From IMG/VR virus record IMGVR_UViG_3300025168_017676, positions 1 through 36,828 of that record: a DNA stretch of 36,828 nt. One strand, given 5' to 3'. The translations under genes and the position numbers were made by a program. The number at the start of each line of letters is the position of its first letter. The stretch's first letter is position 1. Source of the DNA: a virus. The notes beneath the pieces were generated by a model that did not search any database, was not told the DNA's origin, and worked only from the letters and a program-made list of their open reading frames with translations. Below are positions 8,601-32,237 of this stretch, piece after piece.

Positions 8601-9404
8601 ATGAAACGAAAAATTCTTATTATGGGTCTCCCCGGTTCAGGGAAGACAACGCTAGCTGAAAAGTTAGTATCTAAATTAAACGCAGCTTGGTTCAATGCAG
8701 ATGCAGTAAGGCAAGATATTTATTCAGAGTTGGGATTTTCTCCCGAGGATAGGCTTGCTCACGCAACCAGAATGGGTAAGCTATGCGACTGGGCTAAGAT
8801 GGGCGGCTCATATGTAATAGCAGACTTTGTGTGCCCTACGAAAGAAACTAGAGAAGCTTTTGGCGCCGACTTTACAATATGGGTAGATAGGATTGAAGAA
8901 GGAAGATACGAAGATACTAATAAAATGTTTCAGAAACCAGAAAGTTGCGATATCAAACTTAAAGAAGGTACTCCTGATGAATGGTGCGCTGAAGTTATTA
9001 AGCAGCTAAACGAAACAGAAGCTTGGGATAACCAAGCGCCAACCGCACTTCTGATTGGTAGGTATCAGCCTTTCCATATTGGTCATAAAAGCCTTGTGGC
9101 AGAAGCTGTAAGAAGAACTGGCCAATGCTGCATTGCATTAAGAGACGTAGGAGGGATAGACGAAAAAAACCCATATGATTTTGAGCAAGTCAAAAAAGAA
9201 ATCGAATCCGCTTGCATAGAATTTGGAAACAAAATAAAAATAATAGAATTACCTAATATTATGGATATATTTTATGGTCGTGGAGTAGGTTATAATATTG
9301 AAATGTTAGAGCTTAGTAAAGAACTGCAAGAAGTTTCCGCCACAAAAATTAGAGCAGGAGAAATTGGTCAAGACGGGAAAGCCCTAGGTAAAAGGCCAGA
9401 GTGA
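8601..9404 (+). CDS. APS-kinase-like domain fused to a HxGH nucleotidyltransferase
   Basis: A 267-residue two-domain protein. Residues 1-140 match adenylylsulfate kinase (CysC): P-loop GLPGSGKTT at 9-17, FNADAVR at 31-37, ELGFSPEDR at 43-51, ADFVCPTKETR and DTNKMFQKP. This enzyme phosphorylates APS to the sulfate donor PAPS. Residues 147-255 match the NadM/cytidylyltransferase group: IGRYQPFHIGHKSL with HxGH at 159-162 and SATKIRAG at 246-253. A similar fusion occurs in other marine phages. It is one of only two plus-strand proteins here, divergent from the recombinase operon and ending at a strong hairpin. The four sulfotransferases in this window make PAPS supply a plausible job. The C-terminal substrate is unknown: NMN, or sulfate in a PAPS-synthase-like pairing. 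Confidence 0.82.
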   Translation: MKRKILIMGLPGSGKTTLAEKLVSKLNAAWFNADAVRQDIYSELGFSPEDRLAHATRMGKLCDWAKMGGSYVIADFVCPTKETREAFGADFTIWVDRIEEGRYEDTNKMFQKPESCDIKLKEGTPDEWCAEVIKQLNETEAWDNQAPTALLIGRYQPFHIGHKSLVAEAVRRTGQCCIALRDVGGIDEKNPYDFEQVKKEIESACIEFGNKIKIIELPNIMDIFYGRGVGYNIEMLELSKELQEVSATKIRAGEIGQDGKALGKRPE

Positions 9405-9435: not shown

Positions 9436-9465
9436 AAGAAAAAGCCCCCTAGCAATAGGGGGCTT
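9436..9465 (-). terminator. Rho-independent terminator after the tmRNA
   Basis: Perfect inverted repeat GCCCCCTA (9444-9451) and TAGGGGGC (9456-9463) around a 4-nt loop, extended by two A-T pairs. On the minus strand it is followed by TTTTTCTTTT, so it ends the tmRNA transcript. On the plus strand it lies 40 nt after the kinase-fusion stop and may also slow that transcript, though only a weak T stretch follows. Confidence 0.88.
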
Positions 9466-9474
9466 AATTGTAAA

Positions 9475-9835
9475 TGGTGGACGTGGCGGGAATCGAACCC
9501 GCGTCTTTAAACCTTCAAGCATGCACTTCTACAAGTTTAGTTAGTTTCTTTTTGAGTTGTTGATACTAACATCGAACTCCCTATTACAATTATTTGCAGT
9601 TTATTAATAGGTAAACCTTTTCTGTCTTGCAGATAGATTACCCCTTATCCTTTTTATCTGCGTCAAAAGGTAAGAGGTAGCAGAGTTAAGCTGCTAGAGC
9701 AAGCTCAGGCTTTTGAAAGCCGAAAGCTTTGATACGTGACTTGTTGCCATGTAACGAGTTGCGCCTTTTTGAGGAGCCAGACGCGCTCCTACTTGCGATG
9801 CATCAATTCAATTTAAATCAAATCCAAACACGCCC
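9475..9835 (-). ncRNA. ssrA: Transfer-messenger RNA (tmRNA), one-piece, phage-encoded
   Basis: A 361-nt tmRNA. The 3' end (minus strand) has the T-arm GCGGGTTCGATTCCCGC and a genome-encoded CCA at 9477-9475. The 5' end GGGCGTG (from 9835) pairs with CACGTCC near the 3' end, and GGATTTGA follows, as in tmRNAs. A pseudoknot-like AGGAGC/GCTCCT stem with a GCGC loop partner follows. The tag frame ends KPELALAA then TAA (9688-9686), and that stop lies in the loop of a TAGCAG/CTGCTA hairpin, as in bacterial tmRNAs. The tag could start at GGC (9748), giving 20 residues; the resume codon is not certain. It rescues stalled ribosomes by adding a degradation tag, with SmpB from the host. It is flanked by its own promoter and terminator. 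Confidence 0.95.
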
Positions 9836-9887: not shown

Positions 9888-10143
9888 GCTTAGAACAAAT
9901 TTTATTCCAAATCTTATGAATATACTTATGCCTAGTAGAAAAAAAACAACCTAGTATAATTAATAACGTTATAAATATAAAAGGTTTCCACGCAGGAGAT
10001 TCATCGGAGATATGTAACGGAGATTCTTTTTCTTCAATTTGTTGCGCCACTTCAGCTGGTGGAACGATGAGCCTCTTTGCTTGATGCGTCTTAGAAGGCG
10101 AGCAAGCAAAAAATAAAAAACTTATTAAAAATAATTTATTCAT
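9871..10143 (-). CDS. Small lipoprotein with C-terminal membrane segment, candidate unimolecular spanin
   Basis: A 90-residue protein with a short signal sequence ([14 protein letters not shown]) ending in a lipobox-like FFAC with Cys14 as the likely lipidated residue, a polar periplasmic stretch of about 37 residues, a membrane segment (about 53-69, [15 protein letters not shown]) and a short basic tail. A lipid anchor at the N-terminus plus a C-terminal membrane helix is the layout of unimolecular spanins, which join the inner and outer membranes in lysis of Gram-negative hosts. The linker is shorter than in T1 gp11 and the lipobox has Phe at -3, so this is tentative. It overlaps the upstream membrane-protein gene by ATGA. 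No endolysin is visible nearby. Confidence 0.6.
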
Positions 10144-11501
10144 TCGGATTTAAGCCTTAATACGTTAGTTTCTGTTATGTCGTTATTAGGCTTGGGCTCT
10201 GGTTCGGGTTCTGGCTCTGGTTCGGGTTCTGGCTCTGGTTCGGGTTCTGGCTCTGGCTCAGGCTCAGGTTCGGGCTCGGGCTCAGGTTCGGGCTCAGGTT
10301 CGGGCTCGGGCTCAGGTTCAGGCTCTGGCTTAGGTTCTGGCTCTGGCTCAGGCTCGGGCTCAGGTTCAGGCTCGGGTTCGGGCTCTGGTTTGGGCTTTGG
10401 GGGAAGAAACTTAGGTTTAACGCGATCTATTATATTTTCATATGGTTCTTGGCGCTTCATTTTGAAGCTAGAGTTTGCCGCAAGCAGCATAACAACAGCA
10501 AGAGGATCGAACACAAACACTAATATAAGAATAACGATCCTGACAGCTTGTGAAAGATCAACGCTCTCAGATCCAAAATCTTCAAAAAGTTCAGCAACAT
10601 ACTTAACTGGACCGACTTCAGCCTCAAGATCCAACTGGGTATTCTTGTACTTGAACTTTTCAGCTTCCATAGCATCAATTCTTTCATAAGCTGATTTAAT
10701 ATTAACATTAAACTTCTCTTTCTTTAATGAAGTATCTTCGTCCGAGGTATCGTCCTGTCTATTGTTGATGCGGTCTCTTACTTGATCGACTTGACTTTGG
10801 GTTGAGTCACGCATTTTAGTAATTCGTGATTCAACCGCATTCATCTTTGTCTTTATATCTTGCCTTTCAAGTTTTTGTTGAGACTTTAATTCTTCAACCT
10901 TTTTCTTTTTGCTACTGAATAAACCTCCAGAACTACTGTTAAGCAACACAACTTCTTCATCAAGGGTCTTGAGCCTTGAATTAAGTCGGGCTATCTCTTC
11001 ATTATCTAATTTAATACTCTTATCTAAAGATGAATACAGTTCATCTATTTTCTTTTGTTCTAGCTCTATATTATAAACATCTTTTTCAGTAGAGTCTTCT
11101 TTCTCTATAGATAATTGATTGATGTATTCGTTCTGTCTAGATATATAATCGTTCTCTCTAATGATTTTATTATCTAGTTGAGCCATTAGGATGGCAGTTT
11201 CTTCAGCATTCTTCTGGTGTTCGATGTGAGACTTACTTAGGAAGCCAAAAATACCCATACTAGTGATGAATATAAGAACTACCACAGCAGAAGTTAGATA
11301 TATCTTTAAACTCCTAGAAGCTACCCTCCAATTATGATGTAGCCAGCTAGCGGAAACAAGTTTGCCTATCTCTAAAACGCTACCCATGATCACAATAGAC
11401 CAAAAAGCGGCAGGAAACATCGTTGTTAAGCCGATAATACTAAAATACGCAGAGACACATGATATACTAAGCGCAGAAAGTAGGATCAAATAGGACATCA
11501 T
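10140..11501 (-). CDS. Coiled-coil membrane protein with Glu-Pro repeat tail
   Basis: A 453-residue protein. Three hydrophobic helices lie near residues 3-25, 31-50 and 68-92, then a Lys/Glu-rich coiled coil (about 95-305), a fourth helix (about 320-346, [20 protein letters not shown]) and a tail of about 65 residues of Glu-Pro with a few Lys-Pro. Basic loops between helices 2 and 3 ([12 protein letters not shown]) and after helix 4 (KMKRQ) suggest that the coiled coil is periplasmic and the tail cytoplasmic. I recognise the first 100 residues as a family common in marine phages, of unknown function. It overlaps the 50-residue gene upstream and the lipoprotein downstream by 4 nt or less. Roles in lysis control, superinfection exclusion or envelope anchoring are guesses. 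Confidence 0.8.
10191..10399. repeat. Glu-Pro-coding hexanucleotide/18-bp tandem repeat
   Basis: About 200 nt of GG(C/T)TC(T/A/G) hexamers on the plus strand that encode Glu-Pro in the minus-strand membrane protein. The left part contains an 18-bp unit (GGTTCGGGTTCTGGCTCT) repeated three times nearly exactly. The right part uses a different mix of hexamers, so the array grew by duplication of longer units. The plus-strand reading of Gly-Ser is a shadow. Confidence 0.92.
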
Positions 11502-18714: not shown

Positions 18715-19305
18715 TTAAAATTCGTAATTATATTCTTCTATATCTTCCTTGTATATATTATACACTATATTCTTTGATTCTTCTATATATAATTGCCTAT
18801 AGTTCTGCTGCTTTGTCGAATTTATTTTTGGCACTATTTTTAGAGGAAGATTTAGGCGTGATCTTATGCTCATGTAATCGTGATTAATGCCTTCTACTTT
18901 TCCAACGAAATCAACTCGAGCATCTAAAAAATAGGAAAAGGGCTGGAAGTGAATACCAGACCGAACAGAACCCTCTTCGCGGATCATCATCTTCTGAAAT
19001 TCGGGGATTCTTCTAACGAATTCGTCAAAAGAAATTTGCTTAGCTAAATCGGCGAGCTTTTGATTTCCTTTATGCCATCTATCTTTAGGGCTCATGGATT
19101 TGAAGTAACGATAACAAGAAGCTATACGATCCCACGGGTTACGAACGAAAGAAAAAGAAAAATACCCCTGATCTAAAAACTCAGAATGCTTTGATGCTGG
19201 AGCATGCCCCGAACCTAAAAAATCTAAATTAAGACTTTTGTAAACTGAGGTTCCAGCACATTTAGGTATGTGAATAAAGACGCATTTTAAATCATGAGAT
19301 ATCAT
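18715..19305 (-). CDS. Sulfotransferase (family 2 type), copy 1
   Basis: A 196-residue cytosolic sulfotransferase. CVFIHIPKCAGTSV (about 8-21) is the 5'-phosphosulfate-binding loop and FSFVRNPWDR (51-60) the 3'-phosphate motif for PAPS. The C-terminal EEYNYEF follows a VYNIYKED helix as in carbohydrate sulfotransferases of the HNK-1/chondroitin group. It would move sulfate from PAPS to a sugar. It overlaps the GT25-like gene upstream by ATGA, so the two are translated together. One of four paralogues in the island. Confidence 0.88.
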   Translation of the reverse strand: MISHDLKCVFIHIPKCAGTSVYKSLNLDFLGSGHAPASKHSEFLDQGYFSFSFVRNPWDRIASCYRYFKSMSPKDRWHKGNQKLADLAKQISFDEFVRRIPEFQKMMIREEGSVRSGIHFQPFSYFLDARVDFVGKVEGINHDYMSIRSRLNLPLKIVPKINSTKQQNYRQLYIEESKNIVYNIYKEDIEEYNYEF

Positions 19306-20070: not shown

Positions 20071-20862
20071 TTATAAAGAATCTATATATTTTAATAAATC
20101 AAAGATATTATTCTTTTCAATTTTCTGTTGATTTAAATTTAGAACACGACAAATCGTATCAAAGAAAGGGTAATGTCCAGCCCTCGTTTTTTTATCTTCA
20201 AGGGTTTGCGCATTAACTTCAATAACAATAGTTTTGGGTCGGCAAAAAAACAGATTAGCCATACAGGCTCCGTGCGCGCACACGATTATTTTAGCATTAC
20301 AAAAATACAACACCTGATCTTCAAAGGCCATATCTTCTAGAACTATGGCCTCGAATTTATCTCCGTACTTTTCTGACAACCTTTTTTCTACCCTTTCGAT
20401 ACTTAAAATTTCTCTGCGCTCTTTGCCGTTAGTTATGTTTTTGTTTTGTTTCTTTAAGTGTGGATCAGAAATCAATTCCATTCTTTCACCTCTCTTTATT
20501 AAAAGCACTTCTGGGTAAGAAGGGTCAGGCTCGCTCTCCAAACTCAAAGACGTAAAAATAAAATTAACAAATTTTTTAAAGTCTTGAGCGTTTTCATGGG
20601 AAGGTAGCCTTTCTATAACTTGTTCTCGGTAGTCAACATTATTGAATTTGGCTTTATTCATTTCCACATTAAGGCAGTCAAATATTTTTTCATATATTTT
20701 TCCAAAATTACCCAGTGTTTGATTTAAATTCTTAAGTCTCAAAACACGATCAAATTTATACACATCATGTAAAACCTCTGGAAAAAGACAGTCGCAAATA
20801 AAATGAGCATAGTGAAATAAACTACCGCCCTGCCTTTGGTTTTTAACTTTTATCGTATTCAT
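20071..20862 (-). CDS. GT61-like glycosyltransferase (DUF563)
   Basis: About 263 residues from the ATG at 20862; a TTG at 20868 lies in frame upstream. The N-terminus has GGSLFHYAHFICDCLFP, and the C-terminus has LEDMAFEDQVLYFCNAKIIV, then CAHGACMANLFF and KTIVIEVNA, a clear GT61 block. This family transfers xylose, arabinose or N-acetylglucosamine in eukaryotes and various sugars in bacteria. It overlaps sulfotransferase copy 2 by 20 nt at its start and is followed 1 nt later by the GT25 gene. It has no membrane segment. Confidence 0.83.
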   Translation of the reverse strand: MNTIKVKNQRQGGSLFHYAHFICDCLFPEVLHDVYKFDRVLRLKNLNQTLGNFGKIYEKIFDCLNVEMNKAKFNNVDYREQVIERLPSHENAQDFKKFVNFIFTSLSLESEPDPSYPEVLLIKRGERMELISDPHLKKQNKNITNGKERREILSIERVEKRLSEKYGDKFEAIVLEDMAFEDQVLYFCNAKIIVCAHGACMANLFFCRPKTIVIEVNAQTLEDKKTRAGHYPFFDTICRVLNLNQQKIEKNNIFDLLKYIDSL

Positions 20863-21415
20863 AACCAAACAATTCTATGTCTCTTGAAAACTTTTCTGCA
20901 ACCATATTTACACTACGATCATTATAGAAATAAGAATAATGCAGACCCTTAGGTTTAGGAAAAACTTTTTCTCCGTTTGTCCCAGTAGTTATAGGTTTAG
21001 AATTTTCATACGGAAGTTTGGTTTTGACCTTCCCTATCTTGCTGCATACAAGATTAAAGTCTTGTTGTAACTTTTCAAATCTACCTATAAAATCAATATC
21101 AAGATCAAAGTAATCATTATGAATGCAGCTATGACTTGTTGTGAATTTCTCACCATTATACCATTGGATGATGTATTCGTTAAAATCTTTTGTATAGCAT
21201 TGGCCGTTATAAAAATATTGAGAAACCATCTTGTCCCAAGGGTTTCTTGTGAATGAAAAAGTAAAATAATCATCCCATTTGTCTTTTGTTATCGATTTAA
21301 TATCAGAAGCTGGAGCATGAAATTGTTTTTTTCTCATGTTCAAAGCGGAACAAACAGAGACGCCTCCTGTTTTAATCACATGAATAAAAATACATTTATA
21401 TTGATGATTAATCAT
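20843..21415 (-). CDS. Sulfotransferase (family 2 type), copy 2
   Basis: 190 residues from the ATG at 21415, chosen because it overlaps the stop of the GT31-like gene by ATGA and because the other copies begin the same way (M-I-x-H). CIFIHVIKTGGVSV (8-21) is the PAPS loop, with Pro replaced by Ile and Ala by Gly, and FSFTRNPWDK (53-62) is the 3'-phosphate motif. The end reads ELFGYEYDKS. The longer frame to 21484 is not supported. Substrate unknown; the neighbours imply a glycan. Confidence 0.87.
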   Translation of the reverse strand: MINHQYKCIFIHVIKTGGVSVCSALNMRKKQFHAPASDIKSITKDKWDDYFTFSFTRNPWDKMVSQYFYNGQCYTKDFNEYIIQWYNGEKFTTSHSCIHNDYFDLDIDFIGRFEKLQQDFNLVCSKIGKVKTKLPYENSKPITTGTNGEKVFPKPKGLHYSYFYNDRSVNMVAEKFSRDIELFGYEYDKS

Positions 21416-22065
21416 TTGTTGATATCTAATCTTAATACTCCCTTGTCTGACCAAGGATTGATTTCTTTTGGGACAATTCCACATTTTTTCAAAAATTTTG
21501 CAACAGCTAAATCTTCATATATATGGTGATACCTAATTTCAGAAAGTTGGTAAAAATTTTTAAATTTTTTAATAGCTTCAGAGCTTAGAAAATAAGTGGC
21601 TCCCCCAGCAGCCCAATGAACATAATCACCATTATATCTTTTATTATACCAAGGAGAATCTTCTCTTACCCTGCCAATATGCCAACCTCGCTTTCCTTCT
21701 TTAATTTTAATTTGAAAACCTGCATAATCATATCCTTGGAGAGAATTGATTAAATCATTTTCTCTGTCTGTATTCCATCTTAACCAATCAATGTCATCAT
21801 CTATTTTCCAGAAGTAATCATATTGATCCGCATAATTGTTATTTGCTAAATATTCATAAATGGCAAACATTTTTTCTGGAAGATCCTCATATAAGTCGCG
21901 ACATTTTAATTGGATAACATTCTCTTCCAGTTCCTTTTCCTCTTCTCCACCAGTAAAGATCAAATAGTCACCAAGATTCCATTTTTCAACTCGAGCTTTA
22001 ATTTCCTTAACTCGATGAATATACTTTTGACAGCATACAAAAACTTTAAGTATTCCACTTTTCAT
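21412..22065 (-). CDS. GT31-like glycosyltransferase
   Basis: A 217-residue protein that fits the beta-1,3-galactosyltransferase/fringe (GT31) pattern: KVFVCCQKY at the start, EKMFAIYEYL, YDYFWKIDDDI (about 82-92) with the metal-binding DDD, and VHWAAGGATYFLSSEAI with HIYEDLAVAKFLKK (about 180-193), which matches the EDV motif. It starts with an ATG that overlaps the GT2 gene upstream by 20 nt and ends in an ATGA overlap with sulfotransferase copy 2. No membrane anchor is seen, unlike eukaryotic GT31 enzymes. It would act in the cytoplasm on a sugar acceptor. Confidence 0.78.
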   Translation of the reverse strand: MKSGILKVFVCCQKYIHRVKEIKARVEKWNLGDYLIFTGGEEEKELEENVIQLKCRDLYEDLPEKMFAIYEYLANNNYADQYDYFWKIDDDIDWLRWNTDRENDLINSLQGYDYAGFQIKIKEGKRGWHIGRVREDSPWYNKRYNGDYVHWAAGGATYFLSSEAIKKFKNFYQLSEIRYHHIYEDLAVAKFLKKCGIVPKEINPWSDKGVLRLDINK

Positions 22066-25174: not shown

Positions 25175-25738
25175 TTATTCCCCAAATCTATACCCAAAAT
25201 ACTCGATATCTTTTGCATATTTTTTCGAAACAATCTCACGAGTTTCGTCATCATAGTATGCTGTATAGTGTTCGTGGCCATTTCTGTTTTTATGAGGTAA
25301 CTTCGCTTTAGGGACCTTAAGCTTATCAAAAACTTTATCCATACCATCGGGATCTTCTAGTTTAAAAACATAATCCATTAACAAATTGTTGTCTTCATCA
25401 GAAAGCCAATTAAATTGAGGGGATGCTGGATAATGCCTGACGAAATCTTTAAATTCAGTATGGTTATGTTGGTTTTTTTTAAGCCTATATGCCCATGATG
25501 AAACCCGTCTTTCCCAAGGGTTTCGTACTACAGAAAATTTATAATAACCATTCCAGTCCCAATCTTGAGATTTGAAATGAGATTTTAGATTAAGTGCTGT
25601 TGTGTGATGTTTATATGGTGAATTTCCATCATTAACACTTACTATATCGCTATATGGATCGATAACAGATCTGACTGATGTACTGCCAGTTTTCGGAACA
25701 GCGATAAAAACAAATTTATATTTGTGAGATATTCTCAT
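25175..25738 (-). CDS. Sulfotransferase (family 2 type), copy 3
   Basis: A 187-residue sulfotransferase with FVFIAVPKTGSTSV (9-22) for the 5'-phosphosulfate and FSVVRNPWERR (68-78) for the 3'-phosphate. The end reads EYFGYRFGE, like the other copies. This copy has an extra segment (HHTTALNLKSHFKSQDW) between the motifs. Its start overlaps the upstream glycosyltransferase-like gene by 23 nt. Acceptor unknown. Confidence 0.87.
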   Translation of the reverse strand: MRISHKYKFVFIAVPKTGSTSVRSVIDPYSDIVSVNDGNSPYKHHTTALNLKSHFKSQDWDWNGYYKFSVVRNPWERRVSSWAYRLKKNQHNHTEFKDFVRHYPASPQFNWLSDEDNNLLMDYVFKLEDPDGMDKVFDKLKVPKAKLPHKNRNGHEHYTAYYDDETREIVSKKYAKDIEYFGYRFGE

Positions 25739-26420: not shown

Positions 26421-27353
26421 TTAAGAATCAATTATGGTTTTATACCATTTTTTATTTACAGCCTCTACGGAAAAATGTTCTAAGCTAAAATTGAAAGCGT
26501 TATCTATGATAGCTTGACACTCTTTTGGGTGATCATTTGCCCATTCAATTTTTTTAATCAAGTCAGAAAGATCTTTCTTAATAGGAATATAATGGACCAT
26601 AGGTATAAGATATTCTTCGTAGTAAGCTTTGTGAAACCTTTCTTGTAAAAAAGTCAACCTATTAGATTGAAGAAAATATTTTACCCGAGGGCTCCATCCT
26701 GAAGCCTGTAAATCAATAAAGTACTTAAAATTGACAACAGCGTCCTCTAGGGATAGAAAATTAGGATCATTAGGATTTGGCTTTGCAAATTTAGCATCAA
26801 TCAAATCAGGGTGAGACAAAGAAAGATCAACTAGTGGGCCTCTTAATTTAGGATATTTAGTTCCTCTCCAAAACATTTTTGAAGATTTTGCGGGTAGTTT
26901 TCCTGCTGAGCGAATTTTTGGAAAATACTTATCGTATTTCATAGCGCACCAGTTCCAGAATGTGAAATCAGGACAGCAAATAAAATCAGGATGCCTCTTT
27001 AATTTAGGAGGACATTCTGGCTCGTCTTTGTCAATATATGATTGAAAGAAAATAGGCTCTTTTGATTCATTTATTATCCTGTCTAAAGGAGGGACATCAA
27101 TAAAATAAATCTTTACAGCTTTAAAATTCGGTAGAGATAAGGAATTGTCGGCTCTTTCAATCTGTTTGATAAAACTTATTGCTTTTGAGTTTCGAGATTC
27201 AAACTTCCAAGGAGAGTGATCATAATAATGAAAGGCAATCTTTCCCGAAACTTTTTCAATCACAACACGACCAAACCTAAAACGATCCTCCTCGAAAGGA
27301 AGATCGTAAAGATGGGGGTTTCCAATAATTCTAGTTGGTTTAAGCTTATCCAC
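26421..27353 (-). CDS. GT90-like glycosyltransferase (CAP10 type), copy 1
   Basis: A 310-residue protein with a GT90/CAP10 pattern: FWRGTKYPKLRG near 162, YFIDLQASGWSPRVKYFLQSN (in parts: FIDLQASGWSPR, KYFLQSNR) near 210, and MVHYIPIKKDLSDLIKKI near 250. Related fungal enzymes transfer xylose to capsule; bacterial ones add sugars to lipopolysaccharide. It starts at GTG (27353) within the end of the GHKL gene (8-nt overlap). It is a paralogue of the protein at 35700, sharing IIGNP, CCPDF, WRG, HYIP and DLSDL-type blocks. It has no membrane segment. Confidence 0.8.
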   Translation of the reverse strand: MDKLKPTRIIGNPHLYDLPFEEDRFRFGRVVIEKVSGKIAFHYYDHSPWKFESRNSKAISFIKQIERADNSLSLPNFKAVKIYFIDVPPLDRIINESKEPIFFQSYIDKDEPECPPKLKRHPDFICCPDFTFWNWCAMKYDKYFPKIRSAGKLPAKSSKMFWRGTKYPKLRGPLVDLSLSHPDLIDAKFAKPNPNDPNFLSLEDAVVNFKYFIDLQASGWSPRVKYFLQSNRLTFLQERFHKAYYEEYLIPMVHYIPIKKDLSDLIKKIEWANDHPKECQAIIDNAFNFSLEHFSVEAVNKKWYKTIIDS

Positions 27354-29067
27354 TTTTACGTTTTAAGTTATCATATTGATTGTCATAAAATTGACTGATG
27401 CTTTCATCCAAATCTGGAGCTCTAGCCAAAGGATTTTTGGCCAATGTAATTTCGCGTATCAATAGCTCGGAAATATGAAGGGCTAGTAAGAAAGGCCACC
27501 TCTCACTAGAAAAGTTTTTAAATTTTGGGTTGCCGCTATTAATTAACACAGTAAAATCTGAAATGTCATCGACTCTTGACATAACATTTTTTTGATCTTC
27601 TCCAAAATCAATAATTCTATACCTGATTCTTTTAGACTTGTCTTTCTTTTTATTAGCGAAACGACGCCAAGGGTTATTGCGTGGCGGAGGAGGCGGAGGA
27701 GGCTTTTCTTGATCCTCTTCTGGACTTGGGTCAAAATCATCTTTCCTAAGCATAGCAAAGACAGCCTTTCCTTTCAAGTCTTCTTTTTCGAGATCAGGTT
27801 TATCTTCATCATCGTCATCATTTTCAGACCCATCCTCATCGTCCCATAAGTCAGAGAAATTATCTTCATTAAAATACTCAGCGAGCATTTTAGAAACCTC
27901 AGAAGCCAATGCATCAAGAATATCCATCTTCTCTTCTTCGTTTAATTTAATATACTCTATAATCCATTCAAGAATTACCTCATAGCAAACTTTTAAAAAT
28001 GGAATAGTGATAGGATGATCATCTCTTAAGCCGTGATGAGATAAATCTTTCGCAGGCATTCCTGTATCATCAAGAACTTCAGAAAGGTCATTGCAGGAAA
28101 TAAATCCAATGAGCTTATGAAAAATATCATGGACTTTACCTTCGTTTTCAAGAGCTTCATCACCTTTAGAATCAAGCCAAGTTAACACGCTTTTGACTAG
28201 ATCAGGGTCAGAAAGATGAAGTGGGCAAATTTTAACTTTAGATACGATATCTATATTTTTAAGAGGATGGTTTTTTATTACAGACCTGTCATAAACCAGA
28301 GAAAGTCTGAATTCTGCATTTGACTCGCGCTCTTCTCCATAGTAATCGTATTTAAATTTTCGATTAATTATTGGTATGTTAGAGCCCGGAAGTTTATATG
28401 AAAAATCCAAGCTTTCGCCGTTAACAAGTAATTTAAATTGCTTGCCTTCTTTTTCTAATTGAGGCACAAGAAACCCAAAAAAAGTAGAAAGCTCAGAATC
28501 AATAGCTTTTTTATTCCATCCAGTTGACTCTATATGGCTTTTCGTGGAATGTATAATTACTTTTGTTCCTGAAGGGGTTTTGATAGAGCAATTTTCAGCA
28601 TTTATCTCTTTTAAGGAGGGAGAGTACTCATTTAAGAACTCAGAATCAGATGGGCAATATTCTACAATAAAGCAACGCCCATGCTTATTTTTAGTTTCAA
28701 TAGACCAATGTATATCGATTTCACTAGAAAGTTTGTCATTAGCTAGTTTTCCACCTATACCCATCTGTCCTAGTCTTATCCCTTGGCCTTCAGTTAAGTC
28801 ATAAGAATTACCAAAAACAAAGTACTTCTCAAACGCATTCATGTTACTCTCTGGGTCTTTTTCGTGATTAAACCCCTGCCCGTCATCCGTAATTATAGCA
28901 GAGCAAGCACTATCACCAAAAGATTTATGCTTTAACTCAATAGAACAAAAAGTCGCAAAATTTTGAATAGAATTTTTAACAAGCTCAGTAAATGCCTGAG
29001 GGATATTAACGGTAGACTGAAGAAGCCGACTAAGATTTGCTCCTGTTTTGATTTGTATATTGTCCAT
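27346..29067 (-). CDS. GHKL-type ATPase (Hsp90/MutL/MORC fold), unknown role
   Basis: A 573-residue protein. The Bergerat ATP-binding fold is clear: ELVKNSIQN (28-36) with Glu28 and Asn32, DDGQGF (61-66), FGNS (85-88) and GQMGIGGK (100-107). From about 140 to 310 it has a beta-rich transducer-like region. An acidic linker (about 405-430, DDEDGSENDDDDEDK), a run of seven prolines near 466 and a basic segment (RRFANKKKDKSKR) follow. It is neither a histidine kinase (no H-box) nor clearly HtpG, MutL or a topoisomerase. It sits alone among sugar genes with a GTGTAATATA element 6 nt upstream. Possible jobs: chaperone for the large glycan or virion machinery, DNA-linked ATPase, or anti-defence protein. 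Confidence 0.78.
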   Translation of the reverse strand: MDNIQIKTGANLSRLLQSTVNIPQAFTELVKNSIQNFATFCSIELKHKSFGDSACSAIITDDGQGFNHEKDPESNMNAFEKYFVFGNSYDLTEGQGIRLGQMGIGGKLANDKLSSEIDIHWSIETKNKHGRCFIVEYCPSDSEFLNEYSPSLKEINAENCSIKTPSGTKVIIHSTKSHIESTGWNKKAIDSELSTFFGFLVPQLEKEGKQFKLLVNGESLDFSYKLPGSNIPIINRKFKYDYYGEERESNAEFRLSLVYDRSVIKNHPLKNIDIVSKVKICPLHLSDPDLVKSVLTWLDSKGDEALENEGKVHDIFHKLIGFISCNDLSEVLDDTGMPAKDLSHHGLRDDHPITIPFLKVCYEVILEWIIEYIKLNEEEKMDILDALASEVSKMLAEYFNEDNFSDLWDDEDGSENDDDDEDKPDLEKEDLKGKAVFAMLRKDDFDPSPEEDQEKPPPPPPPRNNPWRRFANKKKDKSKRIRYRIIDFGEDQKNVMSRVDDISDFTVLINSGNPKFKNFSSERWPFLLALHISELLIREITLAKNPLARAPDLDESISQFYDNQYDNLKRKSG

Positions 29068-30992: not shown

Positions 30993-31609
30993 TTTTTGAT
31001 ACTATTGTAAAAGTAATCATCTAAATTATCACACTTTAGTATATCACCTTCGTTTGTTTTTACCCATTTTCTATAAAAAGCCTTAAAGTTAAGCTTTAGT
31101 TCAGGCCCAGACATTTCTCTTAATTGATTATCTATATTATCAACAACACCAGTGTCTTTTATGATAGAGAGGAGTCTTTTTGCGCTTGAAAGAGAGGTTA
31201 TATAGCCCTCTCCCCATTGAAAAAGCCTTACTATGTTGATATTATTATCAAGTAGACTCCACTTGTCCGACATTATGTCATTTAAGGAGTCGAAAAAGCC
31301 GGGGAGAAGCTTAGCATCATCCTCAAGAAAAAGAGCGTAAGGAATTTCATTATCTATTTGAAATTTTAAAAACTTAACCTTGGTTATCCAACAAGCAAGT
31401 GTACCGTAGGTATTGAAATCATTTTTAGGGCCAATCTTTAGTTTGTGAAATTCCAGATCTAGATTAATAAATTCATTGATGGTTTCGTTTTTATCGTAGC
31501 CATTGACCGATTTTACAATATTGACAAAAGGAAAAAGCTTGGTTGTTTTGTTGACATATTGCAGCCTATCTTCAGTTAAGAGTGAAAGAATGTATGTTTT
31601 ATATTTCAT
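30989..31609 (-). CDS. GT25-like glycosyltransferase, second copy
   Basis: A 206-residue protein with TYILSLLTEDRLQYV at the start, FVNIVKSVNGYD, GTLACWITKVKFLKF and PYALFLEDDAKLLPGF near 90 with the EDD metal site. This is the GT25 order (compare the gene at 19302). The C-terminal part (FQWGEGYITSLSSAKRLLSII) fits too. It overlaps the sulfotransferase upstream by 11 nt and the GT32 gene downstream by GTGA. Probably adds a galactose-type sugar. Confidence 0.76.
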   Translation of the reverse strand: MKYKTYILSLLTEDRLQYVNKTTKLFPFVNIVKSVNGYDKNETINEFINLDLEFHKLKIGPKNDFNTYGTLACWITKVKFLKFQIDNEIPYALFLEDDAKLLPGFFDSLNDIMSDKWSLLDNNINIVRLFQWGEGYITSLSSAKRLLSIIKDTGVVDNIDNQLREMSGPELKLNFKAFYRKWVKTNEGDILKCDNLDDYFYNSIKK

Positions 31610-32237
31610 AGCTAAAAAGCTCGAAGTCCTTCTTGTAATAATTATACACTTTTTCTTTTAATTTATCAGTCAATTCAAAGGGTCGTTTGAAAGTTTTTGA
31701 ATTATATGTATGGGGTAATTTTAATTCTGTTACGCCTATGTTAGAGCAAGCCTTATTAAAGTCTTCATTGAGATTCTCAAACTTTCCTATAAAATCGCAA
31801 GTGAATTTGGGGTTAATTTTATCTGAAAAATAATGACCACCATTTAAATGAGGAAAAAATTCAAATTGAGGCAACGTATGATATTCATCGTATTCGCTCC
31901 ATAAATTTTCATTGTCTTTGCGATAATCAAGATCAGTAGTTAGTAGTGCATATTCTTCGAATGATACCCCACATTCTTTATTGTAAAAAGGAAGGTCACC
32001 TTCTTTGGAAAATTTTAGCTCACCCCATTTCCATGCGGAAACAAAACGATCATAAGGATTACGAACAAAAGAAAATACATAATAATCCAAATGGTCATTT
32101 AGAAAATGAGAAAAACCACGTTTTCTTAAAATTTTCTGAGGTATTTCTGGGTCTACTTGCCGCAAGAACCTTTCTACCGAAGTGCCTGCCGCCTTCGGTA
32201 TGTGTAAAAAAATGCATTTATTTTTATGAGAAATCAT
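31599..32237 (-). CDS. Sulfotransferase (family 2 type), copy 4
   Basis: A 212-residue sulfotransferase, the most canonical of the four: CIFLHIPKAAGTSV (8-21) and FSFVRNPYDR (55-64) for PAPS, DFIGKFENLNEDF near 150 and a KVYNYYKKDFELFSYEI end. Its ATG overlaps the GT92-like gene by ATGA. Likely acceptor is a sugar on the glycan made by the neighbours. Confidence 0.9.
   Translation of the reverse strand: MISHKNKCIFLHIPKAAGTSVERFLRQVDPEIPQKILRKRGFSHFLNDHLDYYVFSFVRNPYDRFVSAWKWGELKFSKEGDLPFYNKECGVSFEEYALLTTDLDYRKDNENLWSEYDEYHTLPQFEFFPHLNGGHYFSDKINPKFTCDFIGKFENLNEDFNKACSNIGVTELKLPHTYNSKTFKRPFELTDKLKEKVYNYYKKDFELFSYEI

Follow-up and report, generated by a model that had tools for sequence, protein, structure and literature searches.

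The viral DNA considered here, a stretch of 36,828 nucleotides from IMG/VR record IMGVR_UViG_3300025168_017676 (hereafter the window), encodes a protein that joins a domain resembling APS kinase (CysC) to a nucleotidyltransferase-like domain with an HxGH motif. The question raised by this locus is what such a fusion does for a marine phage. The first-pass annotation had offered two answers, namely that the protein makes PAPS from APS, or even from sulfate, for the sulfotransferases of the phage, or that it serves NAD metabolism. Our preferred reading, to which we assign a probability of about 0.6, is that the fusion is a miniature bifunctional sulfate-activating enzyme, a PAPS synthase, supplying PAPS to phage sulfotransferases. 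PAPS supply, even from sulfate, is accordingly the better of the two original options and has gained partial support, as the APS pocket is kept in the kinase half and the nucleotidyltransferase occupies the slot of ATP sulfurylase (Sat) in SAR11 bacteria.

The fusion gene is the only plus-strand gene in its immediate surroundings, and both flanking genes lie on the minus strand (Table 1). The tmRNA gene was picked up by Rfam, while ARAGORN reported no tRNA or tmRNA in the window. Also on the minus strand, at 10140-11501, is a gene for a 453-residue membrane protein with a long (PE)n repeat close to its C-terminus. About 25 minus-strand genes at 16322-36617 encode glycosyltransferases, epimerases, a UDP-galactopyranose mutase and four sulfotransferases, and a gene for an HSP90/MORC-like ATPase (27346-29067) lies inside this glycosyltransferase block. 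PHROG 10255 'kinase' represents the same family over both halves, covering residues 4-252 of the fusion (E 1.4e-51), and its annotation names neither substrate nor pathway. Because relatives down to about 37-45% identity, five isolated phages among them, preserve both halves in the same order, and a single PHROG covers both, a chance joining is excluded.

Table 1. Features of the fusion gene, its 3' flank and the sulfotransferase genes, in window coordinates
Feature	Position	Strand	Basis or remark
APS-kinase-like / HxGH nucleotidyltransferase fusion CDS	8601..9404	+	one ORF, ATG to TGA, 267 aa
CysC (APS kinase)-like P-loop kinase domain, residues 1-138	8601..9014	+	Pfam APS_kinase; PDB fold matches
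P-loop GLPGSGKT, residues 9-16	8625..8648	+	K15 invariant, 155/155
APS-pocket segment N32-A-D34..R37..F46..R51	8694..8753	+	alignment with M. tuberculosis CysC
DFVCP, residues 75-79; counterpart of CysC strand end with phosphosulfate-binding backbone	8823..8837	+	F76 155/155, P79 154/155
Shortened lid RIEEGRYEDTNKMFQKP, residues 97-113, in place of APS-kinase lid of about 30 residues	8889..8939	+	conservation
HxGH nucleotidyltransferase domain, residues 144-267; separate gene in SAR11 and SAR86	9030..9401	+	profiles, model
GRYQPFHIGH, HxGH ATP-binding motif, residues 153-162	9057..9086	+	G153, R154, Q156, P157, H159, G161, H162 invariant
YGRGVGY (YGR[DGK]VGY), family-specific loop	9273..9293	+	Y225, G226, R227, V229, G230, Y231 invariant
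SATKIR, S[GA]TxxR phosphate/pyrophosphate motif, residues 246-251	9336..9353	+	S246, A247, T248, R251 invariant
Terminator-like hairpin, between fusion gene and convergent tmRNA gene	9442..9465	.	full-length stem scored on - strand
tmRNA gene, converging on fusion gene	9475-9835	-	Rfam RF00023, 114 bits
Sulfotransfer_2 protein, proposed PAPS consumer	18715..19305	-	PF03567 50.2 bits
Sulfotransfer_2 protein, proposed PAPS consumer	20843..21484	-	PF03567 33.4 bits
Sulfotransfer_2 protein, proposed PAPS consumer	25175..25738	-	PF03567 48.1 bits
Sulfotransfer_2 protein, proposed PAPS consumer	31599..32237	-	PF03567 67 bits

The kinase half probably acts on APS. Pfam APS_kinase matches residues 5-87 of the fusion at 47.6 bits (cut-off 21.1; E 2.4e-12); the match stops at residue 87, leaving the C-terminal third of the profile (the lid) unmatched, and the score against the NCBIfam equivalog for APS kinase, TIGR00455, is 41.9 bits, below its cut-off of 138.7. 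AlphaFold2 modeled the fusion with a mean pLDDT of 86, and the top 50 PDB fold matches of the kinase half (E 8.7e-9 to 2e-6) are APS kinases or APS-kinase-containing enzymes, save for one sugar kinase at rank 39. APS kinases also rank first when this half is used in a sequence-profile search.

The residues of the substrate pocket point the same way. CysC of Mycobacterium tuberculosis holds the phosphosulfate of APS with Arg483, Arg497 and the backbone of residues 523-524, the adenine with Phe492 and Phe576, and the ribose with Asp480 and Lys562 (PMC4373884). Asp480, Arg483, Phe492 and Arg497 align gap-free, at a constant offset, with D34, R37, F46 and R51 of the fusion; among 155 family proteins D34 and R37 are conserved in all, and F46 and R51 in 154 each. 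The same offset carries the 523-524 backbone to V77-C78 of the window protein. The fusion therefore resembles APS kinase (CysC, PF01583) in its fold, in its P-loop and in the APS pocket, which keeps DxxR, F, R and the conserved F and P, but it has N32-A-D34 where CysC has DGD, and the strongly conserved GRYEDTNKMF stands where the usual lid would bring in Lys562 for catalysis and Phe576 for stacking on adenine. Within this short lid D105, N107 and F110 are each kept in 154 of the 155 proteins, R102 in 150 and K108 in 144, and R102, K108 and F110 may take over the roles of Lys562, Arg559 and Phe576.

The early description of a CysC-like P-loop domain joined to an HxGH domain with HIGH and SATKIR is borne out, both motifs being present (Table 1). 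Calling the second domain NadM-like, as was also done, is correct for its first 65-75 residues or so, the ATP-binding part (profile E 4e-9), and incorrect for the remainder. NadM and CTP_transf_like models match residues 148-226 weakly, alignments to the top NadM chains end at profile position 67-75 of 118 with the nicotinamide-binding half unaligned, and the NadM-type model NF002243 scores 22.5 bits against a cut-off of 127. Beyond the NadM-like part the sequence is the family's own, PNIxNIxYGR[DGK]VGY..[VI]SATxxR, and 23 columns of this half are invariant among 31 diverse sequences. What the fusion shares with the NadM-type NMN adenylyltransferases (NadM/Nudix, 2qjt, 2qjo, 1f9a, 1ej2) is the GRFQPFHxGH motif and the ATP-binding half, whereas its second half is about 50 residues shorter and bears YGR[DG]VGY. 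Structure prediction, which the first-pass annotation had recommended, gave the kinase half an APS-kinase fold and did less for its partner: a separate model of the nucleotidyltransferase half (pLDDT 87) gave no PDB fold match reaching E 0.001, with NadM and phosphopantetheine adenylyltransferase the closest.

ATP sulfurylases carry HxxH, a GRD loop and SGTxxR, and their sulfate is bound by a QTRN loop (PMC3779200). The nucleotidyltransferase half has the corresponding HxGH and SATxxR, and its GRD-like loop is suggestive, but the sulfate-binding motif QxRN / QTRN(P) is absent and GR[YWF]QP is found there instead, which places this half outside the ATP-sulfurylase family. A shortened canonical Sat was considered and rejected, as PF01747 (Sat) has no match in the fusion at cut-off; the best of four members scanned, L035, reached 14.9 bits against 24.3. 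Judged by its motifs, the nucleotidyltransferase half is equipped with the parts for the chemistry of the HxxH superfamily, and we infer that it uses sulfate as its second substrate, or, running in reverse as in SAR11 sulfite oxidation, APS. The analogy once drawn with animal PAPS synthase is one of function only, the C-terminal half being closest to NadM. Like PAPSS1/2 of animals and the Sat-APS kinase of Aquifex, the fusion combines an APS kinase domain with an HxxH-superfamily nucleotidyltransferase and would carry out the same two steps. Unlike these enzymes of 546-630 residues it has 267, with a short kinase lid and a NadM-like nucleotidyltransferase that lacks QxRN and accessory domains.

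The family extends well beyond this phage. Scanning IMG/VR turned up 138 relatives, of which 80 were kept, and tblastn against 50,697 phage records gave nine matches, five of them full-length, in Stenotrophomonas phages Bhz60, DLP6 and Suzuki, Clavibacter phage 33 and Xanthomonas phage AhaSv. Domain order is constant in the fused relatives, and the representatives chosen are 37-79% identical to the window protein. A further 513 relatives were found in bacterial genomes, the best 80 of the 513 mainly in Pelagibacteraceae (SAR11), SAR86 and other marine proteobacteria. In bacteria the kinase (about 135 residues) and the nucleotidyltransferase (about 124-130 residues) are mostly encoded by two adjacent, overlapping genes in the order of the fusion, and about a dozen Pelagibacteraceae have the fused form. 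That the split halves overlap and adjoin in the same order in SAR11 and SAR86 argues, as a Rosetta stone, for one common pathway. The family is near-universal in SAR11, with a strong match, above threshold, in 157 of 198 genomes, and is also found in SAR86. In the open-licence papers that we searched, neither the fusion nor a substitute for Sat in SAR11 is described.

Some relatives differ in form or setting. A lone kinase half of 144 residues is encoded on a phage contig related to the lineage of the window (L080, 10001-10435). At about 15 freshwater-type phage loci (L036-L044, L049, L052, L054, L060, L061, L073, L075) a small DUF2061 membrane protein is encoded directly 3' of the fusion. DUF2061 was dropped as a marker of sulfate assimilation after 13 DUF2061 loci from alphaproteobacteria were read and none showed an APS kinase gene three genes away or closer. 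Directly upstream of the SAR11 fused gene a further protein gene is found in L100, L101, L267 (5530-6495) and L268 (5034-6014), its product in the latter two consisting of a pyruvate-kinase barrel domain only, and a TauE/SafE sulfite exporter is encoded near the fused gene in L267.

The genomic context of the nucleotidyltransferase in SAR11 links it to sulfur metabolism. In 10 SAR11 genomes it is encoded alone, directly upstream of aprM-aprB-aprA, in a cluster of the order MetC-like / MFS transporter / CADD / nucleotidyltransferase / aprM / aprB / aprA, a few of these clusters having one additional gene inserted upstream. The aprA and aprB of the SAR11 cluster are identified at equivalog level (995 and 189 bits), and the apr-linked nucleotidyltransferases are 49-53% identical to the C-terminal half of the window protein. 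The fused gene (L088, L089) or the split pair (L130) also occurs inside this cluster, and on another contig (L091) the cluster begins likewise with the fused gene before the contig ends short of apr. Since the nucleotidyltransferase is the sole family match in 8 of the 10 genomes, it has a role independent of the kinase. The aprMBA clusters L256-L265 of SAR11 contain, besides the CADD-family and MetC-like genes, a gene for a 116-residue protein after aprA.

Allochromatium has sat in this position, immediately upstream of aprMBA and co-transcribed with it (PMC3779200). The SAR11 nucleotidyltransferase shares with that Sat (PF01747) its slot, the HxxH and S[GA]TxxR motifs and a GRD-like loop, but is only about 125 residues long, has no QxRN and reads SAT in place of SGT. 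Among 49 genomes with the family, PF01747 is missing from 46 and CysD from 48. ATP sulfurylase is absent from most SAR11 (PMC10356861), and for Candidatus Pelagibacter ubique HTCC1062 cysC and aprA / AprBA are listed, without sat or cysDN (PMC5069961). The family is associated with aprA across the 198 SAR11 genomes (two-by-two counts 145/12/14/27, odds ratio 23, Fisher p 3e-14), a p-value that is optimistic because these genomes are related and incomplete.

A broader role must be weighed against this sulfur context. The nucleotidyltransferase might adenylylate some other anion or metabolite, with the kinase then phosphorylating the product at its 3' position, as CoA synthesis does, or the kinase might provide the nucleotidyltransferase with a phosphorylated substrate, and the sulfur neighbors would be incidental. 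The acceptors of HxGH enzymes are diverse, the fold matches include phosphopantetheine adenylyltransferase, many SAR11 split pairs have, in place of apr, neighbors related to CoA, dimethylglycine and one-carbon metabolism, and SAR86 genomes with the split pair never had aprA above cut-off. By eye, the sequences around the SAR11 split pair (L114-L162) often look like one-carbon and sulfur genes, including dimethylglycine-dehydrogenase/GcvT-like, MetF-like, SBP56 methanethiol-oxidase-like and YeeE/YedE-like ones. The specific conservation of the APS pocket, the aprMBA slot and the association with aprA make this alternative improbable, although we rank it first among those considered.

In the phages, co-occurrence with sulfotransferases is the relevant comparison. 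The four sulfotransferases that had been noticed in the window are confirmed, with PF03567 scores of 33-67 bits, above cut-off; they are encoded 9-23 kb from the fusion gene, in the minus-strand glycosyltransferase island, and do not adjoin it. A sulfotransferase is found in 28 of 50 fusion records, 22 with Sulfotransfer_2 proteins (up to 11 per record) and six others with Sulfotransfer_3. Both genes are rare, with the full fusion in 5 and sulfotransferase matches in 48 of the 50,697 phage records, and DLP6, one of the five fusion isolates, has both; it gave the best isolate match to a window sulfotransferase, and its annotation reads sulfotransferase. Among records of at least 100 kb from the lineage of the window, the mean number of sulfotransferases is 4.9 with the fusion and 2.0 without (Mann-Whitney p 0.04, with kinship ignored and some records incomplete). 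As sulfotransferases are present in this lineage both with and without the fusion, the four copies in the window prove little by themselves, and no recognized sulfotransferase accompanies the fusion in Bhz60 or Clavibacter phage 33. The co-occurrence proposed in the first-pass annotation therefore holds across lineages, in the 28 records and in DLP6, and is weak within that of the window: the link is real across records.

Bhz60 also bears on the NAD option, in which a NadR-type salvage enzyme would use its kinase to turn nicotinamide riboside into NMN and its HxGH half to turn NMN into NAD, during infection or against NAD-depleting defenses. A NADAR gene (PF08719, 92.6 bits; L082 7565-8008) overlaps the start of the Bhz60 fusion, and this is the main support for NAD salvage because NADAR has been found beside NAD salvage genes in phages (PMC9503650). 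The label 'riboflavin biosynthesis protein' carried by this neighbor was rejected, as the gene is NADAR; Clavibacter phage 33 (L084) has an equally sized gene in the equivalent position. NadR joins the same two kinds of domain, NMN adenylyltransferase and ribosylnicotinamide kinase, in one chain (PMC9503650), and the HxGH half of the fusion is nearest to NadM. However, the order of the domains is reversed relative to NadR (TIGR01526, 22.9 against 341 bits), the kinase half fits APS kinases rather than NadR kinases by fold and pocket residues, and the NadM similarity stops after the ATP-binding half. In SAR11 the nucleotidyltransferase moreover occurs in the aprMBA cluster, with or without the kinase, and the portions of the Bhz60 genome that were read carry no annotated NadV or NadM companion; those of DLP6 likewise contain no NadV annotation. 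We consider NAD salvage, the second-ranked alternative, unlikely.

Adenylyltransferases that convert APS and phosphate to ADP and sulfate exist, and any APS adenylyltransferase would fit the SAR11 slot, where only an APS-consuming step after AprBA is needed. That the nucleotidyltransferase is such an APS consumer and not an ATP sulfurylase, with the kinase drawing on host APS, is nevertheless the least likely of the three alternatives, given that the conserved HxGH and S[GA]TxxR are the ATP/pyrophosphate motifs of the superfamily (PMC3779200) and that recurrent fusion or pairing with an APS kinase is easiest to understand for a partner that makes APS.

All these contexts are most simply explained by a single enzyme system that handles sulfate, APS and PAPS. 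In the bifunctional PAPS synthase that we favor, the C-terminal nucleotidyltransferase would form APS and pyrophosphate from sulfate and ATP, and the N-terminal kinase would phosphorylate the 3'-OH of APS to give PAPS, pulling the unfavorable adenylylation of sulfate forward. We infer that PAPS flows to the phage sulfotransferases, which would probably use it to decorate sugars made by the neighboring glycosyltransferase island. In SAR11 the nucleotidyltransferase together with AprBA would run APS and pyrophosphate to ATP and sulfate, and together with the kinase would yield PAPS; phages would carry the fused form for sulfation. The fullest version of this proposal, in which the C-terminal domain is the first of a new, NadM-derived class of ATP sulfurylase, supplying the step missing from sulfite oxidation through AprBA in SAR11, and the phage fusion is a PAPS synthase driving glycan sulfation, we regard as evenly poised between true and false.

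If the proposal is true, the annotation of a widespread family, whose members are now called 'kinase', 'adenylyl-sulfate kinase' or 'NMN adenylyltransferase', would be corrected, and a very small PAPS synthase, of use as a biocatalyst, would be at hand. The virus would bring its own sulfate activation, feeding its sulfotransferases. SAR11 are among the most abundant bacteria of the ocean, and the missing step of their AprBA-dependent sulfite oxidation would be filled; the nucleotidyltransferase of 125 residues that stands in place of sat offers a candidate for it that can be tested directly.
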